Origin: Acetomicrobium hydrogeniformans
Lineage (GTDB): Bacteria; Synergistota; Synergistia; Synergistales; JAFGMB01
DNA length: 64,000 nucleotides
Reading direction: 5' to 3'
Assembly (NCBI GenBank): GCA_016841745.1
Contig: JAENYO010000003.1
Location: 62,001-126,000 of the forward strand
Shown: positions 29,260 through 55,333 of the stretch, one piece after another
How positions within the stretch are numbered: position 1 is the first letter of the stretch
Layout: each line of letters opens with the position of its first letter
Notes under the pieces: generated by a model
Seen by the model: the letters and a program-made list of their open reading frames with translations, nothing else
Database searches by the model: none
What the model was told of the DNA's origin: nothing
Made by a program: the position numbers and the translations under genes

Positions 29260-30429
29260 ATGACCCTTCGTTTTCTTTCCAGCGGAGAATCCCATGGCAG
29301 AGGTCTCCTGATTATTCTTGAGGGTCTGCCCTCTCATCTGAAAATAAAGGAAGAGAGAATAGCCGGCGAGCTGTCCCGGCGCCGCAGAGGCTATGGCCGC
29401 GGCCCCAGGATGAAGCTCGAAAAGGACAGGCTCACTGCCTGGAGCGGGCTGCGAAACGGTTTTACAACCGGTTCTCCCCTCAGTTTCTCCCTGGAGAATA
29501 CTGAATGGGACAAGTGGAAGTCCCTTCTGGATCCATGGAAAGCTGAGGAGGAAACAGTCTCGCTGAAGAGGGTTACCAGACCCAGACCTGGTCATGCGGA
29601 TCTTCCCGGAGCTGTCAAATACGGTCATGATGATATACGCAACGTTCTGGAAAGGGCCAGTGCGAGATCCACAGCCGCCTGGACCGTAGCGGGGACAATA
29701 GCCCGCCTGCTTCTTCAGGAACTGGGGGTGACTATTCGAAGCGCCGTGACATCCATTGGAGGAGTAGATGTTGCTCTGCCTGAAGGTCCGTCTGAGTGGG
29801 ACCATGCGGCAGCTTCGGACCTCGGATGTCCCAGAATGGAAGACGAGCAAAGGCTTATGGAAAGGATCAGGAAATGCGGGGAAGAGGGTGACACCCTTGG
29901 AGGGACCTTTCTCCTGTCTGCCACGGGACTGCTTCCCGGTATAGGCTCCCATGTCGAATGGGACCGCCGTCTGGACGGCCGGCTGGCCGGGGCTATAATG
30001 TCCATACCCGCAATTAAGGGAGTGGAGATGGGCAGGGGTTTTGAACTTGCCCGCATACAGGGCAGCAGAGCCCATGATGAGATCCTTCCCCATGGAAAGG
30101 GCTGGCAGAGACTTACAAACAATGCTGGCGGTCTTGAGGGTGGAATGACCAATGGAGAGGAACTGCTTCTCTCTGCGGCGATGAAACCCATTCCGACCCT
30201 TAAGAAATCCCTCAGGTCAATAGACATTAACAGCGGTCTGGAAACGGAAGCAGCCTTCGAACGAAGCGATGTCTGCGCCCTTCCTGCCGCGTGTATTGTT
30301 GGAGAGGCCATGTTCTCCTGGGTTCTTGCCGGGGCTGTTATGGAACAGTTCGGTGGAGATACCCTTGAAGACCTCAGGGAACGCTGGAAAAGCTATGAAA
30401 AAAGAGTGGGGTGTTTTATCCATGGCTAG
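29260..30429 (+). CDS. aroC: Chorismate synthase
   Basis: Last step to chorismate, 389 aa, needs reduced FMN. Motifs: S-G-E-S-H-G-R-G near 7-14, R-R-R-G-Y-G-R-G near 41-48, R-P-G-H-A-D near 110, R-N-V-L-E-R-A-S-A-R-S-T-A-A near 128-141, and G-G-L-E-G-G-M-T-N-G-E near 292. Starts 2 bases after the aroE stop. The signature R-A-S-A-R is complete. It ends inside the start of the aroKB fusion gene (8-base overlap). Confidence 0.96.
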   Translation: MTLRFLSSGESHGRGLLIILEGLPSHLKIKEERIAGELSRRRRGYGRGPRMKLEKDRLTAWSGLRNGFTTGSPLSFSLENTEWDKWKSLLDPWKAEEETVSLKRVTRPRPGHADLPGAVKYGHDDIRNVLERASARSTAAWTVAGTIARLLLQELGVTIRSAVTSIGGVDVALPEGPSEWDHAAASDLGCPRMEDEQRLMERIRKCGEEGDTLGGTFLLSATGLLPGIGSHVEWDRRLDGRLAGAIMSIPAIKGVEMGRGFELARIQGSRAHDEILPHGKGWQRLTNNAGGLEGGMTNGEELLLSAAMKPIPTLKKSLRSIDINSGLETEAAFERSDVCALPAACIVGEAMFSWVLAGAVMEQFGGDTLEDLRERWKSYEKRVGCFIHG

Positions 30430-32032
30430 AAAGAATGTTTTTCTCGGCGGTTTCATGGCGGCAGGAAAGACTTCCGTAGGAAAGGACCTTGCCGTAAAGA
30501 CAGGAAGACCTTTTGTCGATACGGATCAGATAATTGAGCAGAGAGCCGGAATGAGCGTCGCCCGGATCTTTGCTGCTTCGGGAGAATCAGTTTTCCGCCT
30601 GATGGAACAACAGGTTGTACGGGAACTCTGTGAACTCCAGGGAATGATCATAGCCCTTGGCGGAGGTATCCTTGCCAATCCGGAACTGAAGGAAACCATC
30701 ATGGGAAAGGGGATCCTTGTTGTTTTGTCCGTACTTCCAGAAACGGCTCTGAAAAGAGCCGCCGCGGAAAAGGGTAAACGTCCGCTCCTTGACCCCTTGA
30801 ATGTAAATGCCCTGTGGAAAAAGAGAATCCCCGCCTATTCAAATGGTCATCTGATCATAGAGACAGACCAGCTGACAGTCGAGGAAGAGGTGGAGCGGAT
30901 CATGGAAGGGCTAAGCCTTCAGCCTCTGGCTGAAAATCCTGAAGGGGTAGTTCTCCAGGGACGTACCGGAGGAAATTCCTATCCCGTATTCATAGGCAGC
31001 GGACTCCTCTCCTCTATGGGAGATCTGCTCCCCGGTTCCGACAGACTTCCTGTTGTGGTTGCCGATGAGATAACAGGCCCGCTTTACGCAGAGAAGGTCC
31101 TGTCGGAAAAAAGGCTGAGCCTTCTTCCCAGGGGAGAGGAAGCCAAGACCCTTACACAGCTTCAGAATATCTTCACTCAGCTTCAGGAGGCGGGTGAGGA
31201 CCGATCAGGATGTATCCTTGCCCTTGGAGGAGGTACTGTAGGAGATGTAGCCGGTTTTGCCGCTGCTTCATGGATGAGGGGTATACGCTTTATACAGTGT
31301 CCCACCACTCTCCTTGCCCAGGTGGACAGCGCTCTTGGAGGTAAAACGGGAATTAACCTGCCGGGGGGCAAAAATATGGTTGGAGCCTTTCATCAGCCCA
31401 TGGCGGTCTTTTCCGACGTGGATTGCCTTGTTTCTCTTTCCGGCGTCGAATTCCGGCAGGGCCTTGCCGAAGTGACCAAGTACGGTCTTGGCCATGACAG
31501 GGATCTATTTTCCTGGCTCAATCTCCATGCCGGACTCATTCTCTCCCGCCAGAAGGATGTTCTGGTGCAGATGGTGGAATGGTGTACCAGGATCAAGCTG
31601 GAAATAGTCGAAAGAGATGAAAAAGAACAGAAGGGGGAGCGGGCAAGACTTAATCTTGGCCATACCATCGGACATGCCCTCGAGGCAGCCTCCGGTTACA
31701 GGAACTGGAAACATGGAGATTCTGTGGCAGTGGGAATGATGGTGGCATCACTCATCTCCGTGGGAAGGGGAAATATGAGTATCCTCGAATTCGAGGAACT
31801 CCATGGTCTGCTGAAGACCTTTGGTCTTCCTGTCAGATCTGATATTCCCTGGGAAGAGATACTTCCCTATATAAAACGGGACAAAAAATTCATTTCCCGT
31901 CAGCCGCGACTGGTTATTCCCCAGGGGATAGGGAACAGCCTTCTTGTCGATGATGCAGGACTTGAGGATCTTGAAAATGCTTACAGGGAGGTGATGCTCT
32001 ATGGAGAAAAAACCGGTCTTTCTTGTGGTTAA
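30422..32032 (+). CDS. aroKB: Shikimate kinase - 3-dehydroquinate synthase fusion
   Basis: Bifunctional protein, 536 aa. Residues 1-165: shikimate kinase with Walker A G-F-M-A-A-G-K-T-S near 10-18, shikimate-binding D-T-D near 34, and G-G-G near 79. Residues about 180-536: 3-dehydroquinate synthase with G-G-G-T-V-G-D-V-A-G near 267, P-T-T-L-L-A-Q-V-D-S near 293, G-G-K near 306, zinc ligands E (near 352) and H-T-I-G-H-A near 418. I chose ATG 30422, overlapping aroC by 8 bases; an ATG at 30395 is a possible alternative. The two reactions are not consecutive in the pathway, so the fusion is about co-expression rather than channelling. Similar fusions are known in some Gram-negative anaerobes. 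Confidence 0.94.
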   Translation: MARKNVFLGGFMAAGKTSVGKDLAVKTGRPFVDTDQIIEQRAGMSVARIFAASGESVFRLMEQQVVRELCELQGMIIALGGGILANPELKETIMGKGILVVLSVLPETALKRAAAEKGKRPLLDPLNVNALWKKRIPAYSNGHLIIETDQLTVEEEVERIMEGLSLQPLAENPEGVVLQGRTGGNSYPVFIGSGLLSSMGDLLPGSDRLPVVVADEITGPLYAEKVLSEKRLSLLPRGEEAKTLTQLQNIFTQLQEAGEDRSGCILALGGGTVGDVAGFAAASWMRGIRFIQCPTTLLAQVDSALGGKTGINLPGGKNMVGAFHQPMAVFSDVDCLVSLSGVEFRQGLAEVTKYGLGHDRDLFSWLNLHAGLILSRQKDVLVQMVEWCTRIKLEIVERDEKEQKGERARLNLGHTIGHALEAASGYRNWKHGDSVAVGMMVASLISVGRGNMSILEFEELHGLLKTFGLPVRSDIPWEEILPYIKRDKKFISRQPRLVIPQGIGNSLLVDDAGLEDLENAYREVMLYGEKTGLSCG

Positions 32033-32459: not shown

Positions 32460-32490
32460 AGAGATCTATAACCGAAGGAAGTGTAATTCC

Positions 32491-32760
32491 ATGAATGAAA
32501 CCAGGTTGAAGGAACTCAGGCTGAAGATAGATTCCATCGATAATTCAATAATAAAGATGCTTCGGGAAAGGGTGGCCGTGGCCAGGGAGATAGGAGAAGC
32601 CAAGGGCAGCAGACCGGTTTATGACCCGGAAAGGGAAATGGCAGTTATAAGAAGACTTCAGGATCTTGCCCCTGATATAGATGGAGAAGCCCTGGCGTCT
32701 GTTTATACAGAGATCATTGCTTTGTGCCGTTCAGTCCAGTGGGAGAAAACGGTTTTCTGA
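32491..32760 (+). CDS. Chorismate mutase (AroQ-type)
   Basis: Stand-alone helical chorismate mutase, 89 aa, making prephenate for TyrA and PheC encoded upstream. Residues aligned with E. coli numbering are kept: Arg11-like (L-R-L-K), Arg28-like (R-E-R-V-A-V-A-R), Lys39 (G-E-A-K), Asp48, Arg51 and Glu52 (Y-D-P-E-R-E). The start at 32491 has GAAGGAAG upstream; an open extension to 32389 overlaps aroQ and lacks a site. Last gene of the aro operon, followed by a strong terminator. Confidence 0.92.
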   Translation: MNETRLKELRLKIDSIDNSIIKMLRERVAVAREIGEAKGSRPVYDPEREMAVIRRLQDLAPDIDGEALASVYTEIIALCRSVQWEKTVF

Positions 32761-32790: not shown

Positions 32791-32837
32791 TTAAGGGGAA
32801 TTCTGCTTTTGTTAGCAGGATTCCCCTTAACTTTTTA
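32791..32837. terminator. Bidirectional terminator between two chorismate mutase genes
   Basis: TTAAGGGGAATTCTGCT (32791-32807) pairs with 32814-32830 with one G-T pair; T-rich on the plus side, A-rich on the other, so it serves both converging genes. Confidence 0.9.
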
Positions 32838-33092
32838 TTCTTTATAGACAGCCCTGCACATTTTCATTATCTCGTCGTAAATGGCAGTCAGGGCCTTGTT
32901 GTCCATTTCGGGGAATTGTTCATGGAGTCTTTTAAGGATAGTTTTCTGTCTGACCTGGTCAAAAACAGGTTTTTTCCAGTCAACCAGGGCTATCTGTCTC
33001 GCTACCTCAAGACGCTTTTCAAGAAGAGCTACTATGGAATCATCGATCCTGTCAATTTCTGAGCGTAGAATTTCAAGCCTTGTTTCTTCCAT
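32835..33092 (-). CDS. Chorismate-mutase-like protein with altered active site
   Basis: 85 aa AroQ-fold protein, clearly paralogous to the protein at 32491-32760 (shared E-T-R-L, I-D-x-I-D-x-S-I, R-L). Compared with E. coli numbering, Arg28, Asp48 and Arg51 are kept, but Lys39 is Asp (A-L-V-D) and Glu52 is Gln (V-R-Q). Both are catalytic, so activity is doubtful; a regulatory or different pericyclic-lyase role is possible. It starts one base after the stop of the ArsM-like gene (TGATATG), behind GAAGGGG, so the two are coupled. Overlaps the terminator by a few bases at its end. Confidence 0.85.
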   Translation of the reverse strand: MEETRLEILRSEIDRIDDSIVALLEKRLEVARQIALVDWKKPVFDQVRQKTILKRLHEQFPEMDNKALTAIYDEIMKMCRAVYKE

Positions 33093-33093
33093 A

Positions 33094-33888
33094 TCAACAA
33101 CCCCTTCTTCGACGGTCTAATTCTGATAATGTCTTTTCACAGGGTTTTTTCCCCCTGAAATACATTGCTGCAGTTTCTGCAGAACTCTCGAAACCTCTCT
33201 TTTCAATAGCTTCAACTTCGGTAAAACCGGTTTTTTTCATCATTACCAGGAAATCCATTCCCGGAATAGTCCCGCCCTTTCAGCCAGCCCAATTTTCAAC
33301 CCGGTCTTCCATATCAAAGGAATATATATCCTTTTGTACCTGATCGGAGATCATAAATCTACCCCCGGGTTTCAACACTCTTATGGTTTCTTTCAGACCC
33401 TGTTCCTTATTCATTATAAGATTAAAGACTCCATTCGAAATGATAATATCAAAGGAATTTTCTTTAAATGGAAGATTTTCAGCCGAACCGTGGAAGAACC
33501 TTACGTTCATGAGGCCAGAAAGCCTGAGATTGCAGCAGGCTCTCTCGTACATGGACTCAACCATTTCTATACCCACAGCCCTGCCATCCGGTCCCGCCAG
33601 GAGGGCAGCAATAAGCGTATCCACACCCGCACCGCATCCAATGTCCAGAACCCTGTCACCCCATCTTATTTTGCCCAGGGAGAAAGGATTTCCTACCCCG
33701 CAGAAGAACCTGGTAATCTCGGGATCGAGCTTATTGACAAGGTCCATATCATAATCAAGCGCTTTCAGCCCGTCCCGGCCCACTGGATAGGGAAATAATC
33801 CCCTCGGACTCAGAGCTACCTTATCGTATTTTTCCTCCAGTTTCTCCTTTATATATTCCAGATCGCTATTTTCCAGGTCCCTGTTCAT
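33094..33888 (-). CDS. ArsM-like SAM methyltransferase with probable selenocysteine (UGA at 33280-33282)
   Basis: Class I SAM-dependent methyltransferase, 264 aa if UGA is read as Sec203. SAM motif V-L-D-I-G-C-G-A-G near 88, I-I-S-N-G-V-F-N-L near 151, K-P-G-G-R near 175. Then V-E-N-W-A-G-(UGA)-K-G-G-T-I-P-G-M-D-F. In the ArsM paralog at 54029 the same place reads Y-S-S-C-I-A-G-A-I-S-E-T-D-Y, so UGA replaces the conserved Cys that binds arsenic in characterised enzymes. After UGA the frame stays open for 61 codons that fit the family C-terminus (R-G-K-K-P-C), and a small hairpin with GG in its loop follows. Start at 33888 chosen over a TTG at 33912 without a site. Coupled to the chorismate-mutase-like gene. 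Confidence 0.82.
33255..33282 (-). promoter_or_regulatory. Candidate bacterial SECIS hairpin
   Basis: Reading the minus strand, UGA (33282-33280) is followed after 10 bases by stem CUAUUC (33269-33264), loop CGG, and GAAUGG (33260-33255); one U-G pair. The loop GG lies 18-19 bases past UGA, within the spacing known for bacterial SECIS elements. Confidence 0.55.
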
Positions 33889-34260
33889 TTCTATAAACTC
33901 TCTCTTTCTCAATACTATTTCAGGTAGTAAGGAGCGATTGGTCTCTCTGAAGTATTTTACTCCAGACAGGAATACATATCATCCAGAAAATGGCCTAGTT
34001 AAGAATCTTGGATTTGATAAAAGCAAAGAATAGTTCCTGGCTTTTTCTTATGCCGCATCTTTGATTTCTCTAAACCGATAATGCTGTGAGATTGATATAG
34101 TTCCCAAGACCTATTCTCTATCCTACCTGATGCCCATACCCGATCATGCAAAAGTCCCACCACTAATCATCTGAAAGGCTCTGAATTAACTCGGTAAAAA
34201 GGGTATGATTTCTAACGTGTTACTTTATTTGGTTAGTTGACACATTATCAATATCTGAAT
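33889..34260. other. Intergenic upstream of the riboswitch
   Basis: About 370 bases without a credible gene. A TTGACA at 34237-34242 lies close to the riboswitch, but its spacing would put the start inside the aptamer, so the true promoter is probably further left (TATGAT at 34204-34209 is a candidate -10). No tRNA or repeat seen. Confidence 0.35.
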
Positions 34261-54028: not shown

Positions 54029-54877
54029 CTATGAGGGTTTTCTGGCATAAAACTGCACACTCAAGATCTTTCCCGAAAGGGTTTCGGCATAATGATCGGC
54101 GGCCTTAGCCCTGTCCATTCCCATTTCTTCAAATATCTCTGAAGGGATCTCGGCAGATGTCTTAACAAAAGCTTTGATATCTTCCATTCCGTATTCAGCC
54201 CTTTCTCTTACCTCCACATTTTCTAGACCTGCTTCTTCCAGGCCCCTTATATAATCTGTTTCGCTTATGGCACCAGCTATACAGCTGGAATAGAGCCGGT
54301 CACTGTTTCTTAGCCATCCCGGAAGATCCTCGGCAACCACATCGGAAACCAGCATTGCCCCCCCTGCTTTGAGGACCCTGTAGATCTCGTCAAAGACCTT
54401 CTTCTTTTCAGGAGAAAGGTTGATAACGCAATTGGAAATGACCCAGTTCACAGTTTCAGAGTCCACAGGCATCTCTTCAATGATGCCCTTTCGGACCTCC
54501 ACATTATTCATGCCCGTTCTTTCAATATTTTTTCTCGCCCTGGAGATCATTTCATCTGTCATGTCTATTCCTATGACTCTTCCCGATGGTCCCACCTTGC
54601 GGGCAGCTATAAGGAGATCCAGCCCGGCACCTGAACCCAGATCCAGAACAGTATCACCTTCCCGGACTTCACTGAAAGCCAGGGGATTACCGCAACCGAA
54701 TGAGATCAGCTCCGGATCAGATATGAGATCAAGTATTTCCTCGTCTGAGTACCCAAGCCCGGCAGAATTGCAGCAGGAGGACGAGCCTCCGCAGCAGCCT
54801 TTTCCTTCAGAAACGGCTCTGGCGTAGTTCCTGGAGACTTCTTCCCTTACTTCCTTTGCCTTTCTTTCTTCTTTCAT
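54029..54877 (-). CDS. arsM: Arsenite methyltransferase
   Basis: 282 aa SAM-dependent arsenite methyltransferase. N-terminal Cys cluster G-K-G-C-C-G-G-S-S-S-C-C near 26-37; SAM motif V-L-D-L-G-S-G-A-G near 82; D-M-T-D-E-M near 107; V-I-S-N-C-V-I-N-L near 146 with arsenic-binding Cys; S-S-C-I-A-G-A near 201 with the second. Start behind GGAGAG. Encoded 96 bases after arsR in the same direction, with a TTGCA-N6-TGCAA operator between. Detoxifies arsenite by methylation. Confidence 0.93.
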   Translation of the reverse strand: MKEERKAKEVREEVSRNYARAVSEGKGCCGGSSSCCNSAGLGYSDEEILDLISDPELISFGCGNPLAFSEVREGDTVLDLGSGAGLDLLIAARKVGPSGRVIGIDMTDEMISRARKNIERTGMNNVEVRKGIIEEMPVDSETVNWVISNCVINLSPEKKKVFDEIYRVLKAGGAMLVSDVVAEDLPGWLRNSDRLYSSCIAGAISETDYIRGLEEAGLENVEVRERAEYGMEDIKAFVKTSAEIPSEIFEEMGMDRAKAADHYAETLSGKILSVQFYARKPS

Positions 54878-54973: not shown

Positions 54974-55333
54974 CTATTCCTCTTCAGGGGGACAGCAGAC
55001 CTCTATTGCCCTGGCTATATCGCTGAACATCTTTGAAACGAAATGGTAATCCATTCGATAAAGAACTTCCTTACCTTGTTTTTCTGAGGTCAGGATGCCC
55101 TCTTCCCTTAGGGATGAAAGATGACGGGACACAACAGAAACATCTATGGGGAAATTCTCGGCAACCTCGGAGACCGTTATTGGTTCGCCCGTTTCAGCGA
55201 GGAAGGCCATGATCCTGAGGCGGGTGGGGTCGCTTAAAGCCTTGAAAAAGCGAGGATTGGGCATCCCTGGTATCCCGCAGCAGTTTGAGGGATTATGATT
55301 TCTCTTATCTTTATTATTCGTTTGCATATTCAT
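54974..55333 (-). CDS. arsR: ArsR-family repressor
   Basis: 119 aa winged-helix repressor: F-F-K-A-L-S-D-P-T-R-L-R-I near 29-41, V-S-E-V-A-E-N-F-P-I-D-V-S-V-V-S-R-H-L near 54-72 as recognition helix. Cys pairs at N-C-C-G near 18 and V-C-C-P near the C-terminus could sense As(III). The ATG at 55333 lies at the predicted transcription start, so the mRNA may be leaderless; no ribosome site is seen for it or for ATG 55327. Confidence 0.92.
   Translation of the reverse strand: MNMQTNNKDKRNHNPSNCCGIPGMPNPRFFKALSDPTRLRIMAFLAETGEPITVSEVAENFPIDVSVVSRHLSSLREEGILTSEKQGKEVLYRMDYHFVSKMFSDIARAIEVCCPPEEE

Follow-up and report, generated by a model that had tools for sequence, protein, structure and literature searches.

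The ArsM-like methyltransferase encoded in the analysed stretch of Acetomicrobium hydrogeniformans DNA (64,000 nucleotides in length, hereafter the window) is very probably a genuine selenoprotein, in which selenocysteine (Sec) would be incorporated at the in-frame UGA of codon 203, and belongs, as a stand-alone form with a single Sec, to a selenoprotein group that is already known. The features of the window referred to in the text are the following:

33094..33888, minus strand: gene of a Sec-containing ArsM-like SAM methyltransferase (frame, NCBIfam and PDB relatives, AlphaFold2 pLDDT)
33280..33282, minus strand: UGA codon 203, very probably read as Sec, equivalent to Cys224 of CmArsM (homologs, alignment to 4fr0)
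33246..33264, minus strand: SECIS-type hairpin with CCGGGAA/UUCCUGG stem and UGGAU apical loop (comparative pairing)
33430..33432, minus strand: Gly153, invariant in the Sec clade, in place of the arsenic ligand Cys174 (residue alignment)
33700..33702, minus strand: Cys63, invariant in the Sec clade, at CmArsM position 70 (residue alignment)
32835..33092, minus strand: chorismate mutase type II gene (PF01817, 62.8 bits)
54029..54877, minus strand: canonical Cys-type arsM paralog (NF008823, 286.4 bits, cut-off 263)
54974..55333, minus strand: ArsR-family repressor gene, adjoining the canonical arsM

Translation of positions 33094-33912 revealed a frame of 264 residues that runs from the ATG at 33888-33886 to a UGA stop at 33096-33094 and, with TGA read as Sec, gives the product MNRDLEN...ENWAG-U203-KGGTIPGMDFLVMMKKTGF...RRRRGC-stop. 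As claimed in an earlier note on this DNA, which gave no strand, the frame on the minus strand continues for 61 codons beyond the UGA before it stops, and apart from codon 203 the translated frame carries no TAA, TAG or TGA ahead of its stop. A gene caller that halts at UGA would be expected to report a 202-residue product. The terminal UGA was also considered as a second Sec codon in the manner of the UXPK-star proteins and was rejected, since reading on adds only YGRNKA before another UGA, yields no UXPK motif and meets the ATG of the chorismate mutase gene 1 base past the stop. Because of this 1-base spacing, the methyltransferase and the chorismate mutase are probably co-transcribed. The methyltransferase gene adjoins shikimate (aro) genes and lies outside any ars operon, a placement that speaks against an arsenic role. 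At the end of the shikimate cluster two chorismate mutase type II genes stand tail to tail (32473-32760, plus strand, and 32835-33092, minus strand), one of which follows the Sec methyltransferase, and a single long ORF at 30269-32032 (plus strand) apparently encodes a fusion of AroK (shikimate kinase) and AroB (3-dehydroquinate synthase).

The earlier note had regarded an absence of sel genes as fatal to its reading. The host genome (3.04 Mb, 99.6% complete) contains all four of them above the curated cut-offs: selA (556.1 bits, cut-off 268), which adjoins selB (361.8 bits, cut-off 242), selC coding for tRNA-Sec (77.9 bits, cut-off 47) and selD (327.6 bits, cut-off 125). The selD gene (L018, G000:C7:161485-162414) has an in-frame TGA of its own in the context SGUAAKIG, followed at about +13 by the hairpin GGUCC-GGC-GGACC, which has a 3-nt loop and lies nearer to the UGA than that of the methyltransferase gene. 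Since the two hairpins differ in layout, SelB of the host would have to tolerate two SECIS layouts, a point against the selenoprotein reading.

Comparison of homologs placed the UGA in a wider frame. A first search of 120 related genomes revealed two orthologs, L021 and L022, with identities of 48% and 41%, in both of which a single TGA stands in the column of codon 203 and the tail is conserved; a third ortholog found in a wider search of the phylum (L133) has UGA at this column as well. A scan of GTDB contigs with the three-sequence alignment yielded 168 relatives, and the best 80 were retained. These belong mostly to Desulfobacterota/'Deltaproteobacteria', the remainder coming from Nitrospirota, Nitrospinota, one Deferribacteres MAG and two Synergistota; the named Synergistota MAG loci are L119 (Dethiosulfovibrio) and L051 (Synergistaceae), whose sequences recur in loci of relatives from the order of the host. 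Among the best 80 of the 168 relatives, the column of codon 203 is occupied by UGA in 79 and by Gly in one, and Cys occurs in none of them, an outcome that answers the alignment of close homologs proposed in the earlier note. Neither of the patterns used for the search, [FY]CGVGNPF or P.GLF.YPV, covers the UGA region, hence the count of 79 is not circular. The exception, L095, has GGA with an intact SECIS stem, whereas its nearest relative L111 has TGA; its Gly codon represents either a recent loss or a sequence error. A pattern-free HMM search, run on 297 further genomes that partly overlap those of the contig scan, revealed 17 places with exactly one TGA each; U was readable in 15 of the 16 fetched regions (L173 not counted), and the GVGNP and SNG motifs were present wherever the regular expression matched.

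The distribution of the UGA bears directly on the simplest rival explanation, a nonsense mutation in a decaying canonical ArsM that now ends at codon 202. UGA is formally a stop codon, and the enzyme could be redundant beside the canonical paralog of this genome. However, a chance mutation does not account for the same UGA in almost all of the retained homologs from several phyla with Cys in none, and other stops or frameshifts, which the earlier note had named as signs of decay, were looked for among the homologs and not found. Together with purifying selection and an ordered fold past the UGA and a SECIS conserved beyond amino-acid needs, both described below, the homolog alignment excludes in practice the nonsense mutation that the earlier note had left standing. 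Separately, an ArsM-like locus in a genome of the same family, L041 (G001:C223:18642-19166), carries an in-frame TAA and is possibly a pseudogene or an assembly error.

Just 3' of the UGA lies a SECIS-type hairpin with G in its apical loop. The earlier note had correctly recognised a hairpin with GG in the loop but had set its start 10 nt after the UGA and its stem at 6 bp; the conserved stem comprises 7 bp and extends from +16 to +34, with the loop GG at +24/+25. Taken alone the hairpin is weak evidence, as the same note had conceded: with the outer pairs included it reaches an MFE of -11.0 kcal/mol, and its fold is not unusual (z = -1.19). It becomes compelling through comparison, as all 7 pairs are intact in 71 of 71 distinct homologs, a set that comprises the homologs minus an eight-sequence Nitrospirota-type group. 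The comparative pair count is the informative test, while single-sequence folding and the per-sequence MFE set against synonymous variants are weak ones. The general form in homologs is CCGGGAA-nGGnn-UUCCUGG or a fully paired variant of it, and in the variants CCAGAAA/UUUCUGG, CCGGAAA/UUUCUGG, CCAGGGA/UCCCUGG and UCGGGAA/UUCCUGA both sides have changed with the pairing kept. The compensatory double changes replace G-C by A-U and C-G by U-A, and RNAalifold, run with no structure supplied, recovered the identical stem. In 500 trials of synonymous codon resampling all 7 pairs were kept in 9.5% of sequences (maximum 21%), hence the stem is under selection over and above that on the encoded P-G-x-x-F-L peptide. 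An Rfam search of the gene returned no SECIS or other credible family, apart from one sub-threshold snoRNA match (E 0.54) that carries no weight. The eight Nitrospirota-type members (L109, L122, L123, L125-L129) carry, in the roughly 50 bases that follow the UGA, another, likewise covarying stem of GAUCCC...GGGAUC types, about 4-5 nt closer to the UGA than the common one. Within a single family of homologous proteins the SECIS has therefore changed its position.

The sequence past the UGA bears the marks of a coding region. Amino-acid identity between the Sec203 protein and six relatives amounts to 33-47% after the UGA and 44-53% before it, and third codon positions are the most variable in every comparison, with a weaker excess past the UGA. 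The AlphaFold2 model, built from a 31-row alignment of the Sec203 protein and locus proteins, has a mean pLDDT of 93.3 and places two core-sheet strands (223-228 and 239-247) after Sec203. ArsM/AS3MT chains fill the top 13 places among the PDB fold matches, and the fold is that of a class I SAM methyltransferase related to ArsM.

One could also imagine that the UGA acts as a programmed switch, which at low selenium would give a functional short form of 202 residues and, by Sec read-through, the long form. Any UGA codon allows some termination, which gives this explanation a foothold but is not specific to the gene studied here. The short form would lack the strands that complete the methyltransferase sheet, together with the residue equivalent to Cys224, and such a switch appears highly improbable. 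We retain the reading of a full-length selenoprotein, in which SelB and tRNA-Sec would decode the in-frame UGA as Sec203 and the hairpin 16 nt downstream would serve as SECIS.

The function of the enzyme is less certain than its Sec. Arsenic is bound in CmArsM by Cys72, Cys174 and Cys224; the C174A and C224A variants are inactive on both iAs and MMA, while C72A is inactive on iAs only (PMC3877260). In the HMMER alignment to CmArsM (4fr0), with the equivalences counted from the coordinates printed in the alignment, Sec203 corresponds to Cys224, Gly153 to Cys174, Val65 to Cys72 and Cys63 to position 70. The replacements hold for the whole Sec clade: in 84 clade proteins position 174 is Gly in all 84 and position 224 is Sec in 83 and Gly in one, while Val at 72 and Cys at 70 likewise occur in 84 of 84. 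The search pattern in part dictates the counts at 72 and 70, but not those at 174 and 224. Hence, of the three arsenic ligands only the one at 224 is retained, and in the form of Sec. In contrast, all 25 canonical Synergistota ArsMs, including the paralog of the window, have Cys at both 72 and 174, and position 224 is Cys in 19 and Sec in six. The paralog carries Cys at all three positions, the last within SSCIAGA as the earlier note had reported, and forms with its arsR a canonical pair 20 kb from the Sec203 methyltransferase. The BLASTP alignment has a gap near the Cys63/Cys72 region, and a two-residue insertion may place Cys63 at the Cys72 site. Judged by aligned residues, the Sec clade thus departs from an arsenite methyltransferase at 174 and probably at 72. 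Of the earlier proposal of a Cys-to-Sec exchange at the arsenic-binding site, the part concerning Cys224 stands, but the other two ligands have been replaced throughout the clade, so that it would be unsafe to presume arsenite methyltransferase function.

With two of the three arsenic-ligand positions replaced, the substrate of the Sec clade is uncertain. That the protein is a genuine selenoprotein but no arsenite methyltransferase, with Cys63/Sec203 binding, e.g., selenium, antimony, mercury or a thiol/selenol compound, is a serious possibility, if somewhat short of an even chance. It would fit the clade-wide replacement of Cys174 by Gly and of Cys72 by Val with a new invariant Cys at position 70, the scores of all eight scored members and the fused L065 under the NF008823 cut-off, and the fusions to AhpD, DUF2284/MbdU-like domains and UXPK tails. 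Neighbouring genes, which were named from sequence by eye, vary between loci, with thioredoxin-like and other proteins recurring among them. On the other hand, the nearest structures are all ArsM/AS3MT, ArsR-family genes lie near 13 of the best 80 of the 168 relatives, always on the same strand, and ArsMs with fewer Cys are known, such as Thermus TtArsM with one Cys (PMC8649762), so the clade may have arsenic activity. An arsenical as substrate of the Sec203 enzyme stands, in our estimate, at roughly even chances. In the mechanism that we favour, Sec203 and the invariant Cys63 would hold a soft, thiol/selenol-reactive substrate beside SAM, and the methyl group would be transferred by SN2 attack of the substrate lone pair. 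The likeliest substrates are trivalent arsenicals, such as methylarsenite or a thiolated arsenic species, and metalloids of similar character.

In a quick, midpoint-rooted tree a branch with SH-aLRT 100 sets the Sec clade apart from the remaining sequences. The Sec-bearing canonical ArsMs of Synergistota, six in all, make up a separate group (SH-aLRT 99) nested among Cys forms; the most parsimonious reading of the tree is that Sec was gained at this column at least twice, with an independent origin in the canonical enzymes. These six (L034, L042, L044, L046, L047 and L049) keep Cys72 and Cys174, have UGA at Cys224 and carry their own hairpin of the CUCUUCC-GGC-GGAAGAG type. Within the Sec clade, the members from Synergistota are scattered in several places among Desulfobacterota, with modest supports, which suggests repeated transfer. 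The Sec203 gene itself sits on a long branch with low placement support and points to no precise donor lineage. We tentatively consider, at slightly less than even probability, that the whole Sec-only clade, stand-alone and fused, might constitute a separate class of methyltransferases rather than arsenite methyltransferases, in which an obligate Cys/Sec pair would replace the three-Cys arsenic site, act on another substrate, a soft metal(loid) or a chalcogen, and have spread horizontally from Desulfobacterota to Synergistota.

A gene shortened by ordinary calling at UGA thus becomes a complete selenoenzyme that no NCBIfam model places above its cut-off. The group now named 'arsenite methyltransferase' is widespread, and the label should not be taken at face value, as the clade has invariantly lost two of the three ligands and Cys is never seen in place of Sec. 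With a canonical ArsM lineage in the same phylum that apparently acquired Sec independently at the same position, what selenium contributes to the chemistry there is open to direct testing.

Among known systems, the closest fold match is CmArsM (PDB 4fr0, 6cx6; E 8e-18, TM 0.69, 28% identity); unlike it, the Sec203 protein has no C-terminal domain, and an equivalent of C44 was not found. C72, C174 and C224 correspond here to V65 (with C63 two residues earlier), G153 and Sec203. With ArsM of NF008823/PRK11873 it has in common the fold, the SAM motif and a Cys or Sec at the place of C224, but it scores 172 bits against a cut-off of 263, with C72 and C174 replaced. The N-terminal Sec methyltransferase domain of three NCBIfam selenoprotein families is recovered in residues 1-256 at 290-329 bits. 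Residues 1-252 match the methyltransferase part of NF041537 (ArsM_AhpD_UU, arsenite methyltransferase/AhpD domain selenoprotein) end to end with 329 bits (cut-off 510), the AhpD domain and its further Sec being absent. NF041536 (ArsM_DUF2284_UU) shares the same domain at 323 bits (cut-off 575) but adds a DUF2284/metal-binding part. NF047649 (MTase_UXPK_star double selenoprotein), of nearly equal length, matches with 290 bits (1-257/283, cut-off 460) and differs in its C-terminal UXPK tail and second Sec, the Sec203 protein ending in RRRRGC. Thus, the second, Sec-bearing C-terminal domain or tail of all three families is missing from it. Seven other stand-alone or domain-only members score likewise below every NCBIfam cut-off. 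Automatic sorting of architectures filed some UXPK-tailed members as 'standalone', and no firm number of stand-alone members follows from it. The fused L065 of the same clade is a true NF041536 member (829.6 bits, cut-off 575) and has the UGA, G174 and V72 in common with the Sec203 protein. The three fused families and arsenite methyltransferase are listed among selenoproteins in a review (PMC13188914), which credits Fomenko et al. 2007 for the latter; Sec forms of ArsM are described there and in PMC9312934 (WP_011987699; Fomenko et al. 2007), and the GOS paper names arsM as a selenoprotein as well. Since this domain already figures in three NCBIfam selenoprotein families and arsenite methyltransferase is listed as a selenoprotein in the literature, the 'probable new selenoprotein' of the earlier note is new only as a member and not as a kind, whereas its standing as a selenoprotein is upheld by the sel genes, the UGA in 79 of 80 homologs, the covarying SECIS and the coding constraint.
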